From assembly GCF_900142705.1 (NCBI RefSeq), contig NZ_FRBV01000002.1, forward strand, positions 310,001 to 374,000: 64,000 nt of DNA. The letters are read 5' to 3'. The position numbers and the translations under genes are program-made. Below, one piece after another: positions 24,687 through 61,534 of the stretch (position 1 is the first letter of the stretch; each line of letters starts with the position of its first letter). The stretch comes from Nitrosospira sp. Nsp11. GTDB taxonomy: Bacteria > Pseudomonadota > Gammaproteobacteria > Burkholderiales > Nitrosomonadaceae. Under the pieces are notes generated by a model. It saw only the letters and a program-made list of their open reading frames with translations, was not told the origin of the DNA and searched no databases.

Positions 24687-24775
24687 TGGTGCCCGGAGCC
24701 GGAATCGAACCGGCATGGGCGATTAAGCCCGAGGGATTTTAAGTCCCTTGTGTCTACCAATTTCACCATCCGGGC
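24687..24775 (-). tRNA. tRNA-Leu (anticodon UAA)
   Basis: On the minus strand the gene starts GCCCGGATGGTG at 24775 and ends CTCCGGGCACCA at 24687, with the CCA encoded. The acceptor stem GCCCGGA/TCCGGGC pairs fully. The anticodon stem-loop is AGGGACTTAAAATCCCT with TAA, a long variable arm is present, and the T arm has GGTTCGATTCC. The 89 bases fit a class II tRNA. It lies between the P4-type integrase relic (3' side) and the active-looking phage integrase (5' side). Confidence 0.95.
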
Positions 24776-24876: not shown

Positions 24877-25833
24877 CTATTTCTCCCTGCGCAGCATCTT
24901 ACCCATTGCAGCAACGCCTTGCTTAAGGTGACTTGTCTCAAGATGAGAGTACAGGTCAGCCGTGATCGCAATGGTAGAGTGTCCTAACAAGTCGCGCAAG
25001 GCTACCAGATTTCCGCCTGATTGCAAGAACCAACTTGCGTATGTGTGCCGCAGGTCATGGAAGCGAACGTGATCCAGCCCAGCGGTTGCGCGCGCCTTTT
25101 CAAAATATGTCCGGAGAGTTGAGTAAGTAATATCCAATGGTAAGGGAATGGCCAGCGCTTCATCTGGTATAGGCACAAGCCGGGGCTTGCCCGACTTCGC
25201 TACTTTTATGAAGATGCAGCCATCGCGGATATGGTCAGGCATAAGGTTCAGCAATTCGGTTTCCCGTAATCCCGACATGCACGCCAGCAGGATTGCATCA
25301 GCCACCCTTGGGTGCTCGCATACCGCAGCAAGGTTTGATGCTTGTTCGGGAGTAAGGTAAATGTCGCGGCGCGCTTCGCCGGACAGAAGTTTGATTCGCT
25401 GTCCTAAACTTTGGTCTAGCCATCCCCACTGATCGTGGGCTAGATTCGCTACGCGGCGCAGGATGGCAAGGCGGCGGTTTATGGTGGCAGGTTTTAATCC
25501 GGACTTTATGCCATCTGCTTTTATCGTTTCTGCAACCTTGACGATTTCATGCAGAGGGACGCCAGAACAGTATGGTTCAATGGCCGACACTTTGCAGAGT
25601 AAATTCTGGTAACTTTTGAGTATCTTCGCCTCTCCGGTCAACCACTTTACCAACGCCTCTTCAATAGTTCTTTTTGGGGCATGCCCGAGACGGCCCGCTA
25701 CAGCATCCTTTCTGATCTTCGCTTCTAGCTGAAGCGCGTCTTGGCGCGTCGCTCCCCGTCCAAGAGAGACTTCAACGCCCCGACCTTTGATTTGTAGGCG
25801 GGCATACCAAATGTCGCCACGTTTCCGGGGCAT
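24877..25833 (-). CDS. prophage tyrosine integrase
   Basis: A complete 318-residue tyrosine recombinase. The N-terminal part (RGDIWYARLQIKGRGVEVSL) and the SAM-like core domain are followed by the catalytic domain with Arg190 (GLRETELLNL), Lys213 region, His259-x-x-Arg262 (HDLRHTYASW), His285 (LLGHSTI) and nucleophile Tyr295 (DLYSHLE). It should integrate and excise the prophage, presumably at or near the adjacent tRNA-Leu, 101 bases away. Its start overlaps the 3' end of the excisionase-like gene by 109 bases in another frame; this ATG is chosen because it gives the usual N-terminus. It is the last gene of the leftward operon. Confidence 0.93.
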   Translation of the reverse strand: MPRKRGDIWYARLQIKGRGVEVSLGRGATRQDALQLEAKIRKDAVAGRLGHAPKRTIEEALVKWLTGEAKILKSYQNLLCKVSAIEPYCSGVPLHEIVKVAETIKADGIKSGLKPATINRRLAILRRVANLAHDQWGWLDQSLGQRIKLLSGEARRDIYLTPEQASNLAAVCEHPRVADAILLACMSGLRETELLNLMPDHIRDGCIFIKVAKSGKPRLVPIPDEALAIPLPLDITYSTLRTYFEKARATAGLDHVRFHDLRHTYASWFLQSGGNLVALRDLLGHSTIAITADLYSHLETSHLKQGVAAMGKMLRREK

Positions 25834-38654: not shown

Positions 38655-38888
38655 TTAATTCCTCTTTCCGGTCCTGGCATTCGAATGATTACCCGGCGCT
38701 ATCGTGCGCTTCCGGTTCTCCGTAGCAACATGCAGCAAATGCAGTTCTCGTCGCGCCATTTCGGTGAGCCTCAGCAACTCGTCCGTTTTAACCTTTAATT
38801 CAGATCGCTTTCCGACAGTCGGCAGCTCGCGCACTATCTTGTCGATAGCGTCCAAGTTGGCAAGGAGGCGGGTTGTTGATTCGTCCAT
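38655..38888 (-). CDS. small coiled-coil protein of the cI-linked cassette
   Basis: A 77-residue, mainly helical protein (LLANLDAIDKIVRELPTVGK, LLRLTEMARRELHLLHVA) with a basic tail (RTGKRN). No family is recognised. It starts 10 bases after the nuclease gene on the same strand. Confidence 0.55.
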   Translation of the reverse strand: MDESTTRLLANLDAIDKIVRELPTVGKRSELKVKTDELLRLTEMARRELHLLHVATENRKRTIAPGNHSNARTGKRN

Positions 38889-38897
38889 AGCGGCAGG

Positions 38898-39347
38898 TTA
38901 AACGTACTGCACTACTCGAGATAAAGTATGACGTCTCATTTTTCGGAATTCCCATGGTGGGATAGGGGAGGGCTCGGACCATAAACCGCGCTTTTCTACC
39001 TTTGCGCCATGCTCCAGAACATATAGATCGTGATCCTTGGCGTATTGCCGATATACCCAGGCCATACCTCGGCTGACCTGCTCAGCGTTGGCGTCAACGC
39101 CATCACACTTGATCCGGGCAACCGTTCGTTTATACCGATCTTTTGCTTGAGGCTTCACCTCTGCCTGTTTGCCGAAGCAAAGATCAGAAAGTGATTGCTT
39201 GGAGCGTGTGCCAAACGCCTGACGTTTCTCGGGTGCGTCAATCTCAGCGAGGCGGATCTTGATCTGCTGTTTATCCGGAGTCAAAACGGTGAGCGTATCA
39301 CCATCGGAAATGCCGATTACGGTAGCGAGGAAGGCGGCAAGGAGCAC
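38898..39347 (-). CDS. staphylococcal-nuclease-like protein (SNase domain)
   Basis: A 149-residue SNase/thermonuclease. The domain has ISDGDTLTVLTPDKQQIKIR, LAEIDAPEKRQAFGTRSKQS, AKDRYKRTVARI and WSEPSPIPPWEFR; the catalytic Arg-Glu-Arg set corresponds to R in IRLAEIDAPE, the nearby Glu and R in YKRTVA. Relatives are exported and cleave DNA and RNA with calcium. The N-terminus here (VLLAAFLA) is a very short hydrophobic stretch, so export is uncertain. The GTG start lies seven bases after the stop of the chimeric gene, so the two are likely co-expressed. Confidence 0.8.
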   Translation of the reverse strand: MLLAAFLATVIGISDGDTLTVLTPDKQQIKIRLAEIDAPEKRQAFGTRSKQSLSDLCFGKQAEVKPQAKDRYKRTVARIKCDGVDANAEQVSRGMAWVYRQYAKDHDLYVLEHGAKVEKRGLWSEPSPIPPWEFRKMRRHTLSRVVQYV

Positions 39348-39353
39348 AGTGGC

Positions 39354-40067
39354 TCACTTCTGAGAAGGTTTATCGAGTTCTCCATGAAACTCGACATAAC
39401 CAGGAAGCTCGCTTGATGGAGTGGTCGCCTCCGGCATTATTGCTCGAACCCGACGCACAACCTCTTTAAAGCGGGCATCATAGGATTTTTCAATCCATTT
39501 CGGGTTATTCCGCAAGATTTCGTCCTGTCTTAGAGCCTCATCCCATGCACCAGGATCGTTTGCCTCCCAATGAGTAATGTAGTGGTTGCGGTTTTTTGCT
39601 TGAGCAACCTGTTCTTCGACGCTTGGTTTAGTTTGAGAATTGGTCTTTGTTGTTTTCTTCCCGCACACCGCGTGGAATACGCTTTCTCCTACAGAGCCTG
39701 GCATTATTGCGGACTTGCCTTCGCTTTCGCTTTTGGGTGTGGCGCGGTCTGCAACCTTTCCTTTGCCGTCTGTTTCTGAATAAAAAACCAGTTCTTTAAG
39801 GATGCTCGTCCTTTTTGGGCAGTCTATTATCGATAGTGATTTCGTCGAGAAATACGTGATTCCAATCGCATTCTTCTGGATGTTGGCATAATTTATCAGT
39901 TGCCAAAACTCAAAACGATTTTTTTCCTTGATCATGGATGGTTCGTGTACAAAATACATATCGTCATCATAGGAACTCGTTATGTAGATCCATTCCGATG
40001 ATGGATTGCTCGACGCAGAATGCGGCCACATCATAAATATGACGAGGGCTGCCGCCACTTTTAACAT
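39354..40067 (-). CDS. exported surface-adhesin-E-like protein fused to a scaffold-derived segment
   Basis: A 237-residue protein from ATG 40067 (ribosome site GAGGGA; an upstream ATG at 40109 would bury the signal). A signal peptide MLKVAAALVIFMMWPHSASS is followed by an SA-E-like domain (about 25-136): WIYITSSYDDDMYFVHEPSM, FEFWQLINYAN, YFSTKSLSIIDC, VFYSE, IMPGSVGESVFHAVC. Residues 149-217 match the phage scaffold protein (residues 183-251 counted from 59282) at 46 of 69 positions, including THWE-NDP-AWDEA, QDEILRN and RRVRAIMP. It is the third gene after cI on the repressor strand and should be made in the lysogen. The role is unknown; interference with superinfecting phage is a hypothesis. 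Confidence 0.75.
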   Translation of the reverse strand: MLKVAAALVIFMMWPHSASSNPSSEWIYITSSYDDDMYFVHEPSMIKEKNRFEFWQLINYANIQKNAIGITYFSTKSLSIIDCPKRTSILKELVFYSETDGKGKVADRATPKSESEGKSAIMPGSVGESVFHAVCGKKTTKTNSQTKPSVEEQVAQAKNRNHYITHWEANDPGAWDEALRQDEILRNNPKWIEKSYDARFKEVVRRVRAIMPEATTPSSELPGYVEFHGELDKPSQK

Positions 40068-40101: not shown

Positions 40102-40362
40102 CTAGTCATTAATCGGAGACTTGCTGATTATTTGCCGCAGCAGTTTTGCCACGAGCACCAGAAGCATCCCGACTGCGAAGGTCGCATTCCTATGCAACTC
40201 TCCGGCAGTATTCGTAACGTAACTTCGTCTCGGTTTTTTATACATGGCAGCAAAGGCAATGCCTATTAGCTTCCCCATTTTTGCATCATTCAGCAGGTCC
40301 TGAAGAGCTTCGACGGTGCTATGGGATATGGTGTCGTCGGTGAGTACAAACGGGGGTTTCAT
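40102..40362 (-). CDS. conserved phage protein coupled to cI
   Basis: An 86-residue protein: STVEALQDLLNDAKMGKLIG, IAFAAMYKKPRRSYVTNTAG, ELHRNATFAVGMLLVLVAKL. This pattern (VExLxxLLxxAxxGxxIGxAFxA, G-E-x-x-RNxTFAxGM) is widespread in prophages beside repressor genes; function unknown. The ATG overlaps the cI stop by four bases, so it is translated with the repressor. Confidence 0.7.
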   Translation of the reverse strand: MKPPFVLTDDTISHSTVEALQDLLNDAKMGKLIGIAFAAMYKKPRRSYVTNTAGELHRNATFAVGMLLVLVAKLLRQIISKSPIND

Positions 40363-40874
40363 AAGTCATTCTTCCTTCTGCGTTGATTCTCCATATCGGA
40401 GACGTGCTGATAATCGGATGGCCCGTCGTAATCTATTTCCCCTTTTCTCCTGGCCGGCGCTTTATCTTTCGGGTTTCTATTTTTATTTTGTTTCGATTTT
40501 ATTGGTTGGGTTTCGTCTGTATCAGCTGAGTTTTCAGTAGGGGTTATCCCGGATTTCTTCATTAAGAAAACGCATAGATCTGAAACATGTTTCAGATCAT
40601 CTTCTTGCAGCGAATACATTGCTTCCGAGATCTGATTCATGAGCTTCTCGCTTTCAGAAAGAGCGTGATCTCCGGTTCCTTTCGACAGCCATTCAGGGCG
40701 AACGCCCAGTATCCTGGCCGCACACAAAAGGTTCTTTCCTTTTATCTCTGTTTCCGGGTTATTAAACCAATGTGAGATAGCTCCGGACGATAGACCGCAC
40801 CCCTTCCATATATCTGTTTTCTTTTTGCCTGATTTATCCAAGGCAAACTTCAGGCGTTCGGCAAGCGTTTTCAT
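40359..40874 (-). CDS. CI-like phage repressor without protease domain
   Basis: A 171-residue protein. The N-terminal 70 residues are a lambda-type HTH domain (LAERLKFALDKSGKKKTDIW, LSSGAISHWFNNPETEIKGK, NLLCAARILGVRPEWLSKG). The rest is a helical segment and a Lys/Asp-rich tail; there is no S24/LexA-like autoprotease domain, so induction cannot follow the classical RecA cleavage route. It is divergent from the Cro-like gene with three operators between. A -10-like TACTAT (40886-40881) leaves about six bases before the ATG, so the mRNA from this promoter would be leaderless, as in lambda pRM. Confidence 0.85.
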   Translation of the reverse strand: MKTLAERLKFALDKSGKKKTDIWKGCGLSSGAISHWFNNPETEIKGKNLLCAARILGVRPEWLSKGTGDHALSESEKLMNQISEAMYSLQEDDLKHVSDLCVFLMKKSGITPTENSADTDETQPIKSKQNKNRNPKDKAPARRKGEIDYDGPSDYQHVSDMENQRRRKNDL

Positions 40875-40943: not shown

Positions 40944-41135
40944 ATGAACATTCCAGATAACGAAATCATTGATGCGCTCGGCGGCTCTTCCGCTGTTGCT
41001 GTTTTGTGCGAGGTCACTGTAGGCGCTGTGTCGCAGTGGAAGACTGATGGCATACCGAAGGCACGCCTAATGTATCTCAAAGTCATCCGCCCAGACATCT
41101 TCCTCTCCCCCTCCAAATCAAAGGAGGTGGCGTGA
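40944..41135 (+). CDS. Cro-like (YdaS-type) regulator
   Basis: A 63-residue protein: NEIIDALGGSSAVAVLCEVT, VGAVSQWKTDGIPKARLMYL, a helix-turn-helix typical of Cro/YdaS. It probably binds the same operators and shuts off cI in the lytic cycle. It is the first gene of the rightward early operon and its stop overlaps the next GTG by three bases. Confidence 0.85.
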   Translation: MNIPDNEIIDALGGSSAVAVLCEVTVGAVSQWKTDGIPKARLMYLKVIRPDIFLSPSKSKEVA

Positions 41136-54296: not shown

Positions 54297-54466
54297 TTTA
54301 TATCGCACTAGCCATTGTTTGCTTGCCTATATGGGCTGTCGTAATCGCTGAGCGGATCGCTATCTATTACGTATGGCGCGAGTTCGATTGCCACTACCGT
54401 ACTGACCATCGGTTTCGTGGGCTGCACGGATGGGTGGTTGCGATGTTGAGGGGGCGCAATCTATGA
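54293..54466 (+). CDS. small phage membrane protein
   Basis: About 57 residues from GTG 54293, which overlaps the terminase stop (GTGA); an ATG at 54284 is also open. One N-terminal membrane helix (IYIALAIVCLPIWAVVIAER) and a basic, His/Arg-rich tail. It overlaps the portal start by four bases. Function unknown. Confidence 0.55.
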   Translation: MIYIALAIVCLPIWAVVIAERIAIYYVWREFDCHYRTDHRFRGLHGWVVAMLRGRNL

Positions 54467-56511
54467 CAGCTGAAGCTCCAATCAAATCGGATATATCGAT
54501 CGAGGCGTACGACAAGATATGCCGCGATATAAGAAACGCTCCCAAGTGGCGGGTCGACTCGGATACCGATTGCGATTACTACGATGGAATGCAGACCAGC
54601 AAGGATGTTATTGAGCGACTGAAGCAAGCCGGCATACCTCCGCAAGACAGCAACCTGATCAAGCCGACGATCAATGCCGTATTAGGCCTTGAGGCTCGTT
54701 CACGCACCGATTACAAGGTTACCTCAGACGACGAGCAGCAAGCCGAGATAGCCGAAGGCTTGTCCGCCAAGATCAAAGAGGTAGAAACCGAGTCACGCGC
54801 CGATCGGGCAATGTCCGACGCCTACTCGAGCATGATCCGCGCCGGTATTGGCTGGGTTGAGGTGTCCCGCGAGTTCGATCCGCTCAAGTATCCCTATCGG
54901 GTGCGTGAAGTCCATAGAAACGAAATCCACTGGGACTGGACAGCCAAGGAACCTGACCTATCCGACGCCCGTTACCTCCGCCGTGATAAGTGGGTTGACC
55001 GCGAGCAGGCCTTGAAGATGTTTCCGGATGAGGTTGCGATCATTCAGAACTCATGGAATCGCTGGACCTCGCTTGATGTGTACGATGGTGCCGATACCAA
55101 CATGGCCAGGGCGTACGAGGTCGAGCAGACTTGGGGCAAGAATCAAGAGGATTATCTGAATCACTCTTCCGGCATGATTCGCCTATCAGAGTTGTGGTAT
55201 CGGCATTACGAAGATTCGCACGTCCTGGCGCTGCCTACCGGCCAATCCATTGAGTACATCGAGGATAGGCTAGACCATCAAGCCGCCGTCGCTCAAGGGC
55301 TGGTGCAGGTCCAAAAAGCGTTATTGCCTCGAGTGCGCGTATCAATCTGGCTTGGGCCGCACAAACTTATGGACGTGCCAACACCGCTTCCGCACACCAA
55401 TTTCCCTTACGTTCCATTCTGGTGTTTCCGCAAGGATAGAAGCCGGACGCCCTACGGCCTAATACGCGACATGCGGGGGCCGCAGGATCAGATTATCGAC
55501 TTGGATATTCTGCTCTACGAGGTCCTGAATTCGGTAAAAGTCGAGGTGGACAATGACGCGCTGGATCTGAGCCAGAATTCATATCAGGAAGTCGCGCAGA
55601 ACATGCAGTCACTGCGTTCAATGACCGTATTGAACGCACAGAGACGGAGCGCGAACGGCTTTAAAGTTACCCGGGAACATGCTCTTGCTCAGCAAGTGTT
55701 CCAGCTCATGCAACAGCGTGAAAGCCGCATTGAGTCGGTTGGCGGCATATACCGAGCAATGTTGGGTGCATCGACTCAAGCCACCAGTGGCGTCGCCATT
55801 AATAACCTGGTTGAACAAGGATCAACTGTTTTAGCTGAGCCCAATGATAACTTCCGTTACGCCCGCCGTATCGTTGGCGAGCAGCTTATCGCTTTTGTGA
55901 AGCAGGATATGCTGGGCAGGCCAACTCAGGTTGCGGTTCAGCAAGGTAATAAACAAAAAGTCGTTTACTTTAACAGGCAGATCATGACCGATTCCGGGCC
56001 TGCGGTAGAAAACGACATAGCGGCCGCGCAGGTGAAGGTGGTGCTGGAAGATATACCGGCTACCCCGACTTACCGCGCACAGCAGTTGCAATCCTTTAGT
56101 CAGATGGTTACTGCCGCGCCACCTCAGTTCCAGGCTGTGCTATATCCGGCCATGCTCGAGCTATCTGATGTGCCGAACCGGCATGAGTTGGCCGATCAGT
56201 TGCGGATGATGGCGGGCACTGGTGGGGCTGATGAGCAAGTGCAGAAACTCCAGCAGCAGGCACAACAGGCCATGCAAGAGCAGCAAGCCCAGTTCCAGGC
56301 ACAGATGGAGCAGATGGGGCAGGTAGTACAGGGATTGCAAGCTCAACTTGCGGAATCCAAGCAAGCTATTGATGACAAGTCTCGCGAGCTTGACCTTAAA
56401 GAGCGCGATTTGGACATTAAGGCGGAGAAGGTCGAGATAGATGCTCAACTTGCGGCAGAGAAGTTATCGCTTGAACACGTCAATAAAGCGTTATCTGAAA
56501 GGACAATCTAA
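54463..56511 (+). CDS. P22-type portal protein
   Basis: A 682-residue protein from ATG 54463 (ATGA overlap). It has the P22 portal pattern: RDIRNAPKWRVDSDTDCDYY, LIKPTINAVLGLEARSRTDY, FDPLKYPYRVREVHRNEIHW, PFWCFRKDRSRTPYGLIRDM and RGPQDQIIDLDILLYEV. The last 130 residues are a glutamine-rich coiled coil (KLQQQAQQAMQEQQAQFQAQ), comparable to the barrel region of P22. It forms the dodecameric DNA channel at one capsid vertex. The P22-type portal with an N4-type capsid points to a podovirus of the Bcep22 kind. Confidence 0.88.
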   Translation: MTAEAPIKSDISIEAYDKICRDIRNAPKWRVDSDTDCDYYDGMQTSKDVIERLKQAGIPPQDSNLIKPTINAVLGLEARSRTDYKVTSDDEQQAEIAEGLSAKIKEVETESRADRAMSDAYSSMIRAGIGWVEVSREFDPLKYPYRVREVHRNEIHWDWTAKEPDLSDARYLRRDKWVDREQALKMFPDEVAIIQNSWNRWTSLDVYDGADTNMARAYEVEQTWGKNQEDYLNHSSGMIRLSELWYRHYEDSHVLALPTGQSIEYIEDRLDHQAAVAQGLVQVQKALLPRVRVSIWLGPHKLMDVPTPLPHTNFPYVPFWCFRKDRSRTPYGLIRDMRGPQDQIIDLDILLYEVLNSVKVEVDNDALDLSQNSYQEVAQNMQSLRSMTVLNAQRRSANGFKVTREHALAQQVFQLMQQRESRIESVGGIYRAMLGASTQATSGVAINNLVEQGSTVLAEPNDNFRYARRIVGEQLIAFVKQDMLGRPTQVAVQQGNKQKVVYFNRQIMTDSGPAVENDIAAAQVKVVLEDIPATPTYRAQQLQSFSQMVTAAPPQFQAVLYPAMLELSDVPNRHELADQLRMMAGTGGADEQVQKLQQQAQQAMQEQQAQFQAQMEQMGQVVQGLQAQLAESKQAIDDKSRELDLKERDLDIKAEKVEIDAQLAAEKLSLEHVNKALSERTI

Positions 56512-59157: not shown

Positions 59158-59296
59158 CTGCGTTCATGGAGACGAACTCCCTTTACCGGCAAGGTAAATG
59201 AAGTTTGTTTTCTCAAACCGCGCTAACGGCGATACCGCAGTTTTTATCAACCCCGAAAGGGCGCGCTCACTGCGTTAAGAAGTGGAGATGAAGGCA

Positions 59297-60250
59297 ATGG
59301 AAGTAGATCAGCTTACGGATGAGCAAATTGCAAACCTTACGCCGGAACAAATCGAAGAGTTGGAGAACGACCCCAGCAAAGTCGACGAAATTCTCGGCAA
59401 GCAAGCGGCAAAGGATGAGTCCAAACCGGAAGTGAAAAGCGTGGCTAACGACGCGGACAAAGAAGAGCCGGTCGTTCTGAATAAGAGCGGCAAGGGGATT
59501 ATTCCTTACGAGAAGCACAAGGAATTGCGAGTGGAGAATTCAGCGTTGCGTGAACAACTGCAGTCTGCCCAAGCGGAAAACGCGAAGGCAACCGAGAAGT
59601 TGGAATCGCTGCTGAAGGCTAGGGAAGCGGCCACGACCGGCAAGGATGAGGCGAATGCAGATGATGCCATAGCCAAGCATCTGGCCACGCTCAAGAACGA
59701 TATGCCCGAACTCCACGAAGTAATTACCTCTGTCCTCAAAGGAAGTCGTGAGCAAGGCGAAAAGCTGAACGAAACGCTGCAAGAGCTGAAGCGCGAGAAG
59801 GAGGAATCCGACCGCGTTAAGCAATTGAGCGTTGCCGAGCAAGTCGCTGAAGCCAAGGACAATAACCCTGACTTGACACATTGGGAGAGCAACGATCCGG
59901 AAGCTTGGGACGAAGCCATGAAGCAGGACGAGATTCTTCGGAATACCAGCAAATGGGCCGGAAAGCCCTACGCTGAGCGGTTCGAGGAAGTAGCCCGCCG
60001 AGTGCGCGCCATTATGCCTGACGCCTCTGCACCAAAGAAAGCAGATGAGCCGGAGCAGACCAAGGCTAAGGCGAAAGCCAAGCTAGACGCTGCGCCGGCA
60101 CGGAAACCTACAACCCTTTCGGATATTCAAGGTGGCGCGCCTGTTTCTGAAGGTGACGAGATCGCGAATCTGAAGCCGCATGAACTTACGGCCAGGCTCA
60201 TGAAAATGTCGCCACAGAAAGCTGCCGCCATGAGAGCCGAATTAGACTAA
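59297..60250 (+). CDS. capsid scaffold-like protein
   Basis: About 317 residues, acidic and almost wholly helical, directly before the capsid gene, as expected for a scaffold. It has TDEQIANLTPEQIEELENDP at the start, a coiled coil at about 75-115 (KHKELRVENSALREQLQSAQ), a second near 160, and a basic C-terminal part (TKAKAKAKLDAAPARK). The segment 59828-60034 (SVAEQVAEAK through VRRAIMP-type text) recurs in the exported protein at 39354-40067. The start is ambiguous: GTG 59282, ATG 59288 and ATG 59297 are in frame; the last lies nine bases after GGAG and is preferred. Confidence 0.75.
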   Translation: MEVDQLTDEQIANLTPEQIEELENDPSKVDEILGKQAAKDESKPEVKSVANDADKEEPVVLNKSGKGIIPYEKHKELRVENSALREQLQSAQAENAKATEKLESLLKAREAATTGKDEANADDAIAKHLATLKNDMPELHEVITSVLKGSREQGEKLNETLQELKREKEESDRVKQLSVAEQVAEAKDNNPDLTHWESNDPEAWDEAMKQDEILRNTSKWAGKPYAERFEEVARRVRAIMPDASAPKKADEPEQTKAKAKAKLDAAPARKPTTLSDIQGGAPVSEGDEIANLKPHELTARLMKMSPQKAAAMRAELD

Positions 60251-60262
60251 GGAAATACTGAA

Positions 60263-61534
60263 ATGGCTGAAACAAATGTAGCAAGTGGCAGTTCGATTGC
60301 CATTAAACACTATAGCGCGGCACTTTTCGCCAATACGCTGAAAGGCGCGTCTGCAATTGAAAACCTCGTCGGTCCTGTCGAGCCCAATTCCGCGATGGAA
60401 AAGGTGGCAGGCCAGACTGAACCGGGGATGCCGATCGTTCGCATCGATAACCTGATGAAGTCGGCGGGCGACATCGTTTCGCTGGATCTGGTTGATACGA
60501 TCAGCGGCGAACCTCTCATGGGCGATGTCAACCGTGAAGGCAAGGGTGACGCGCTTTCCTTCTCTTCGATGGAAATCAAGATCAACCTTTCCAGTAAAGT
60601 GATCGATGCGGGCGGCAGTATGAGCCAACAACGCACGAAGCACCAGTTGCGTGAAATTGCTCTTGCCCAGTTGTCCGGCTACTTCCCGCGGCTGGATAAC
60701 CAGGAAACTCTGGTGCACCTTGCTGGCGCGCGCGGTTCGCAGACCGGCTCCGATTGGACGATTCCCGTTCAATCGAGCGCCAAGTTTACGGACATCATGG
60801 TCAATGCGGTAAAGGCCCCGACCTATAACCGCCATTTCGTGGTGAACGGCGCGGGCTTGACCGCTGGCGGGCAGCAACTCAATTCCATCGCCTCTACCGA
60901 TCAACTGAAACTGGTTCATCTTGACCTGCTCCGCAAGCGCCTGGATGACATGGACCAGCCTTTACAATCGGTGAAGCTCGCCGGTGATCGCGCTGCTCAG
61001 ACCTCCAAAATGTGGGTATTCCTTGCCACGCCCAATCAGTACTCGGTATTGCTGAGCGAAGGCTCGCTGCGCGCATTTCAGCAAAACGCCGTGAACCGTG
61101 CTGCGTATCTCGATAGCCGTCATCCGCTGTTCGCCGGTGAAGTCGGCATGTGGAATGGCATTCTGGTGATCAAGAATGAGCGGGCAATCCGCTTCATGCC
61201 CGGCGAGAACACCAGTATCGTTACTGCCGCGAATGCGCCGACCGCTACCGAAACCAGCCAGGCTGTAAGTGGTTCGCTGACCGCCGGTTACGCTGTCGAA
61301 CGCGGCCTGTTGCTCGGTGCGCAAGCCCTGGGTGTCGCCTACGGCAAGACTAAGGTTTCCGGTATGCAGTTCGGCTGGAAAGAGCACTGGTACAACTTCG
61401 AGAGCAATCTGGAGGTCATGGGTGAGAAAGTGTGCGGCAAGAGCAAGGTGCGCTTCTCGGTCGATGACGGTACCGGTTCCAAGGTTCCTACCGACTTCGG
61501 CGTGATCGCGGTTGACTCTGCGGTTCCTCTCTAA
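60263..61534 (+). CDS. major capsid protein (N4 type)
   Basis: A 423-residue protein of the N4 gp56-like/DUF4043 capsid family: IAIKHYSAALFANTLKGAS, LMGDVNREGKGDALSFSSME, INLSSKVIDAGGSMSQQRTK, LAGARGSQTG, SKMWVFLATPNQYSVLLSEG, HPLFAGEVGMWNGILVIKNE, GWKEHWYNFESNLEV and a final TDFGVIAVD. HK97-like fold is inferred. It starts 12 bases after the scaffold stop and is followed by a ribosome site AAAGGAG for the next gene. Confidence 0.88.
   Translation: MAETNVASGSSIAIKHYSAALFANTLKGASAIENLVGPVEPNSAMEKVAGQTEPGMPIVRIDNLMKSAGDIVSLDLVDTISGEPLMGDVNREGKGDALSFSSMEIKINLSSKVIDAGGSMSQQRTKHQLREIALAQLSGYFPRLDNQETLVHLAGARGSQTGSDWTIPVQSSAKFTDIMVNAVKAPTYNRHFVVNGAGLTAGGQQLNSIASTDQLKLVHLDLLRKRLDDMDQPLQSVKLAGDRAAQTSKMWVFLATPNQYSVLLSEGSLRAFQQNAVNRAAYLDSRHPLFAGEVGMWNGILVIKNERAIRFMPGENTSIVTAANAPTATETSQAVSGSLTAGYAVERGLLLGAQALGVAYGKTKVSGMQFGWKEHWYNFESNLEVMGEKVCGKSKVRFSVDDGTGSKVPTDFGVIAVDSAVPL

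Follow-up and report, generated by a model that had tools for sequence, protein, structure and literature searches.

Lysogens of phage P22 block the function of ejection proteins via SieA, a prophage-expressed protein of the inner membrane which acts on P22-type phages, for which an action on the ejection-protein conduit has been proposed, and whose description reports, in its abstract, no copy of a virion part (PMC10883804). Another exported prophage protein, the lipoprotein Ltp of Streptococcus phage TP-J34, contains a repeat domain and excludes phages by contacting the delivered tape measure protein (PMC3952083). The scaffold of P22, gp8, has been described as consisting of a base (residues 58-84 and 163-245), a column, a C-loop and a coat-binding hook (268-303), and has been proposed to dock the ejection proteins, the proposed site being the end of the column and not the base (PMC12005531).

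In this paper, we analyse P0001, a mosaic protein of 237 residues encoded by a prophage of Nitrosospira sp. Nsp11 at 39354..40067 on the minus strand of a stretch of 64,000 nucleotides (hereafter the window, whose coordinates are used unless another locus is named). The host of this dormant virus is a soil ammonia-oxidising bacterium. Like SieA, P0001 is proposed here to be made by the prophage, to reside in the envelope and to act on P22-type phages; however, it looks soluble and exported, and carries virion-derived pieces. It shares with Ltp its apparent export, whereas it has no cysteine near the end of the signal peptide. The fold of its N-terminal domain is that of the Haemophilus protein E (Adhesin_E), to which P0001 adds phage-derived pieces. 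The scaffold-like protein of the window, for its part, has the portal-scaffold-coat gene order and a probable helical base domain in common with P22 gp8, while P0001 differs from gp8 in having a base-like module only, with no column or hook. The reading that we favour, to which we give a probability of about 0.35, is that P0001 would be expressed in lysogens as an envelope protein that hinders the entry of related P22-type phages.

Composition of P0001 and its place in the prophage

The P0001 gene has a good ribosome-binding site before its ATG at 40067, and an alternative in-frame start is possible at 40109. About the first 20 residues (40008..40067, minus strand) form a probable signal peptide, as judged by eye and by a hydropathy peak of 2.87, in agreement with the first-pass annotation, which had called the product a signal-peptide protein with an SA-E-like N-terminal domain. 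The latter assignment is borne out as well: residues 26-136 (39660..39992, minus strand) match the Adhesin_E (SA-E) family PF16747 with an E-value of 7.1e-17 and 62.1 bits, above the curated cut-off of 23.7, and a Foldseek search with the predicted structure returned nine matches at E<=0.001, all of them entries of Haemophilus (H. influenzae) protein E, two being a chimera with PilA. The prediction itself (21 aligned rows, mean pLDDT 76.0, pTM 0.52) contains two confident domains joined by a loose linker and followed by a disordered tail. The first cysteine of P0001 is residue 83, so that a lipobox cysteine is absent, and cysteines 83 and 135 align with cysteines in all seven SA-E-only proteins compared. 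Two other SA-E proteins, in genomes G005 and G012, carry no scaffold piece. PADLOC returned no match for P0001, nor for the 278-aa protein described below.

The second confident domain is a helical piece at residues 149-217 (39417..39623, minus strand; pLDDT 77-95 in ten-residue blocks over 151-220), and it resembles residues 183-251 (59828..60034, plus strand) of a scaffold-like protein of 322 aa encoded at 59282..60250 on the plus strand (phrog_479, E 1.1e-55), between the portal and coat genes. On aligning the translations we recovered the ungapped match of 46 of 69 positions reported in the first-pass annotation; the best local alignment of the two proteins, in which the piece is extended with gaps, scores 251 against a best of 79 among 1000 shuffles, and the P0001 segment alone matches phrog_479 at 3.9e-16. 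One phage family is thus matched specifically, and the notion that the shared piece is a generic helix was discarded. The last 18 residues of P0001 (39357..39410, minus strand), predicted to be disordered, resemble the peptide with which giant ejection-type proteins begin.

The prophage has at its left end, beside a tRNA-Leu gene (24687-24775), a phage integrase gene (24877..25833, minus strand; PF00589, E 9.3e-21), and its virion genes include a P22-type portal (54430..56511, plus strand; PF16510, E 9.1e-110) and the coat protein (60263..61534, plus strand; PF13252, E 2e-150). P0001 lies on the repressor side. On the minus strand, and separated by small gaps, are found in order a cI-like repressor gene (40359..40874; matches to HTH_3, just under the cut-off, and to phrog_4), an 86-aa gene overlapping it (40102..40362), P0001, an SNase-type nuclease gene 6 bases past the P0001 stop (38898..39347; PF00565, E 1e-21) and a 77-aa gene (38655..38888), while a P22-type Cro-like gene diverges from them (40944..41135, plus strand; P22_Cro PF14549, E 4.2e-08). 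An 85-aa homologue of the 86-aa gene occupies the corresponding position in the Nv4 prophage (score 172, shuffle maximum 49), where the nuclease gene is 85% identical to that of the window, and a partial homologue of the 77-aa gene (44% over 36 residues) follows a damaged copy of P0001 in Nitrosovibrio tenuis Nv1.

The first-pass annotation had placed P0001 on the cI transcript. The common strand, the short gaps and the gene order make co-transcription with the cI-like gene plausible; a consensus scan, which gave 3 promoter-like sites (5.8 expected) and 13 terminator-like sites (5.1 expected), leaves it unsettled, because the minus strand has a weak promoter-like site and a terminator-like site within the cI-like gene, and another terminator-like site (40058-40039) at the start of P0001. 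SNase-type nuclease genes at E<=1e-10 are found in 22 of the 23 genomes of the genus, and some of them, by eye and among the matches listed, adjoin small exported proteins. To the right of the prophage, just beyond the phage genes, Type I-E-like cas genes (matches to Cas3, Cse1 and Cas1) are located at C24:396267-404281 (L107) of the same genome.

Sources of the scaffold segment and the terminal peptide

The scaffold-like protein has several features expected of a P22-type scaffold, namely a position between portal and coat, a mostly helical model and C-terminal helices, of which three are predicted at 290-321; with this full-length model, whose pTM is 0.26, Foldseek returned nothing and hence no match to gp8. 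Across 26 aligned scaffold-like proteins, the segment 183-251 has 31 of the 66 invariant columns and the segment 61-100 has 17, with mean identities to the window protein of 0.80 and 0.82, respectively, so the shared piece is one of the two best conserved stretches. From the order of the parts and the structure prediction, it is probably the counterpart of the second part of the base in the P22 scaffold. In remote phages the segment is kept between portal and coat, with base-segment matches at about 35-44% identity at 20 loci, at which no column or hook was matched at E<=1e-3. P0001 has neither the column nor the coat-binding hook of a P22-type scaffold: it lacks the C-terminal helices predicted to bind the coat, and only residues 149-217 match the scaffold ungapped.

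The suggestion that the piece derives from the phage's own scaffold did not hold. Scaffolds at other Nitrosospira loci match it equally well or better, the closest (49/69) being that of the resident locus of N. multiformis Nl7, and in a tree that also includes the 26 scaffold-like proteins, the three fused copies cluster together and apart from the scaffold of this phage, with support of 0.83 and 0.76 for a segment that is short. Identical codons are used at 17 of the 46 identical residues. This codon divergence, the tree grouping and the better match elsewhere rule out a recent copy of the phage's own scaffold, and the P0001 piece represents an older lineage.

The claim that the fusion is real and old is upheld, and the fusion occurs beyond this prophage, with two relatives among the 23 genomes of the genus, both damaged. 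The copy in Nitrosovibrio tenuis Nv1 is truncated at the 5' end and misses the start of the SA-E part, and that in N. multiformis Nl18 is frameshifted, with no SA-E part seen; a P0001-like terminal peptide ends the Nl18 copy and is absent from the Nv1 copy. A wide distribution of the fusion was not observed: neither the 50,697 phage records nor the 72,556 plasmid records contain a match to P0001 at E<=0.01. A genome contig search returned none, and a viral contig search returned one contig with a protein identical to P0001, both searches reaching close relatives only and possibly leaving out records near the genome of origin. A match of 30 residues on contig C15 of the same genome was set aside as a small remnant or chance. 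As two of the three copies of the scaffold piece are damaged, the gene is dispensable in Nv1 and Nl18, a point against the block on entry proposed below.

These data bear on the idea that P0001 is an accidental mosaic of little or no function, in which recombination or deletion in decaying prophages fused an SA-E gene with fragments of structural genes. Virion-gene debris at several places, the damage to two of the three fused copies, and branches in the fused lineage that are longer than those of the scaffolds are all in its favour; however, P0001 still has an open frame despite large divergence, with the signal peptide and the two cysteines in place and a confidently predicted fold, and its comparison with the Nv1 copy gives a dN of 0.27 with a dS too large to estimate. 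We regard such an accident as rather unlikely.

The last 18 residues match the N-termini of giant proteins, or their remnants, at three loci in related prophages, namely a 926-aa ORF in Nv1, a broken copy in Nv4 and a remnant in genome G006, with scores of 61-78, where shuffles reached at most 38-40. In the window phage itself, the giant protein (2227 aa, with an LPD38 domain) has a different N-terminal peptide. We infer the ejection-type nature of these giant proteins from their position after the virion genes. As the proteins from which the two borrowed pieces derive are expected inside procapsids, a location likewise deduced for the giant protein, the pieces might load the SA-E domain into heads for delivery as virion cargo; yet P0001 is on the repressor side, away from the late genes, and has an apparent export signal, and we give this possibility very little weight.

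Some further observations concern the surroundings of the giant genes. To the right of the window, at C24:384846-385370 (L106:14847-15371), a protein of 174 aa has a probable signal peptide and DYGEFFADKYGG, and no Pfam match; by eye, DYGEFFADKYGG resembles peptides at the N-terminus of the giant protein that this phage encodes. Similar lipoproteins with an MLPGR motif are encoded beside the Nv1 giant ejection-type gene (L121:10451-10912) and in the Nv4 repressor operon region (L163:9872-10270), and from these lipoproteins, compared by eye, cargo may move between the giant-gene side and the repressor operon region.

Exported virion pieces and the entry of related phages

In the Nv4 sister prophage the order is a cI-like gene, the 85-aa gene, a 100-aa exported protein, a lipoprotein, a 255-aa exported protein and the nuclease, with export and lipoprotein signals read by eye. 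The 255-aa protein (L163:10284-11048), which thus takes the place of P0001, combines a probable signal peptide with a virion-protein piece: a blastp search of 283 sequences matched it to the virion protein of its own phage at 2e-18 and to a 579-aa protein of the window phage at 2e-12. The virion protein behind the piece is different from the scaffold. Across the 23 genomes there is one more intact exported relative, a 278-aa protein of N. multiformis Nl7 (L214:8692-9525; 1e-36), which is located near integrase, CHC2 zinc-finger and DUF3631 genes, with the Zorya genes ZorA, ZorB and ZorC about 4 kb on. All three stand-alone pieces judged intact, i.e. P0001 and the 255-aa and 278-aa proteins, have a probable signal peptide. 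The coat protein gave 25 matches in 22 of the 23 genomes, with no stand-alone piece among them. Stand-alone pieces of a 404-aa virion protein (G008:C11, G015:C1 and G022:C1) were rejected as decayed and lacking a signal peptide by eye, and the other two weak hits of the 255-aa protein (G015:C3 and G019:C19) looked decayed.

A comparable exported virion piece at the matching place in a sister prophage speaks against an accidental origin of P0001. It also bears on lysogenic conversion by an SA-E surface protein, in which the scaffold module would do no more than dimerise or stabilise that protein; the Adhesin_E fold of P0001 and the dimerisation of the P22 base domains (PMC12005531) would suit such a role, but it leaves unexplained both the ejection-type peptide and the different virion piece in Nv4, and we consider it improbable.

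The first-pass annotation had suggested that the piece acts against the assembly or the entry of related phages. Action against related phages is strengthened by the Nv4 prophage and by the neighbourhood of the 278-aa protein, while capsid assembly is disfavoured as the target because of the apparent export signal, the SA-E cysteine pair and the absence of predicted coat-binding helices. The same features count against interference in the cytoplasm, whereby an unexported fraction of P0001 would poison the lattices that scaffolds form in co-infecting phages or in the resident cluster described below. That the module is probably the lattice-forming, portal-contacting base domain and that related scaffold genes occur in 23 of 23 genomes would favour it, and we hold it to be quite improbable.

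A block on entry, our preferred reading, starts from what is observed, namely the composition and position of P0001, the second exported virion piece at the matching place in Nv4 and the neighbourhood of the 278-aa relative. The signal peptide would direct P0001 of the lysogen to the periplasm, where the SA-E domain would fold, and the base-domain module and the giant-ejection-like peptide would be exposed there. Once the ejection proteins of a related phage enter the periplasm, the borrowed pieces of P0001 might bind them or replace a partner, and the DNA conduit of the incoming phage would fail. The weak point is the scaffold piece. To our knowledge, ejection of the scaffold has not been described, so its periplasmic partner is a conjecture, and because of this missing partner we keep the block on entry at the probability given above, with the accidental mosaic as its closest competitor. 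Also against a block on entry, the docking site proposed for P22 is the end of the column and not the base, P0001 and the 278-aa protein have no PADLOC match, damaged virion-gene pieces without signal peptides exist elsewhere in these genomes, the second kind of exported piece comprises one prophage protein and one relative that may have a single origin, and a terminator-like site is found at the start of P0001.

In a more general and distinctly doubtful form, prophages of this group would assemble a class of exclusion proteins out of components found inside their own particles, such as the scaffold base and ejection proteins, provided with export signals and placed on the repressor transcript, as periplasmic decoys against related phages or resident particles resembling gene transfer agents, and integrating islands would have acquired the same device. 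If true, phages would re-use pieces of the head interior as exclusion proteins, a simple route to inhibitors fitted to close competitors, and the composition of P0001 would be a clue to contacts between scaffold and ejection-protein parts. In the titles and abstract openings of the open-licence literature, we found no report of exported virion pieces of this kind for Nitrosospira or Nitrosomonas.

A resident structural cluster in Nitrosospira

A P22-like structural cluster of about 22 kb was observed at G000:C33:43000-62900 (L104) and at loci L080-L105. Scaffold-like genes occur in all 23 genomes of the genus and coat genes in 22 of them, the genome without a coat match being 80% complete. Among the 10 loci whose flanks were compared, nine each share host genes on both sides with that in G006. 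For G006, G007, G011, G013, G019, G020 and G021, the cluster has no integrase within 100 kb among the matches listed, which also omit the integrase of the window itself. Titles and abstract openings in the open-licence literature contain no report of a gene transfer agent in Nitrosospira or Nitrosomonas, and the word prophage is absent from the available text of the N. briensis C-128 genome paper (PMC4964001).

A tree built from coat, portal and terminase at 21 resident loci has 11 of 18 splits in common with rpoB, compared with a mean of 0.18 and a maximum of 3 in 1000 label shuffles; two rpoB splits with support >=0.9 are missing from it. The flanks of the 10 loci and this tree of 21 genomes are those expected of vertical inheritance at a fixed site, which makes the cluster a candidate gene transfer agent of Nitrosospira and raises the question of whether ammonia oxidisers possess gene transfer agents. 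The three phage-type copies, i.e. those of the window, of G005 C38 and of Nv4, form a clade of their own.
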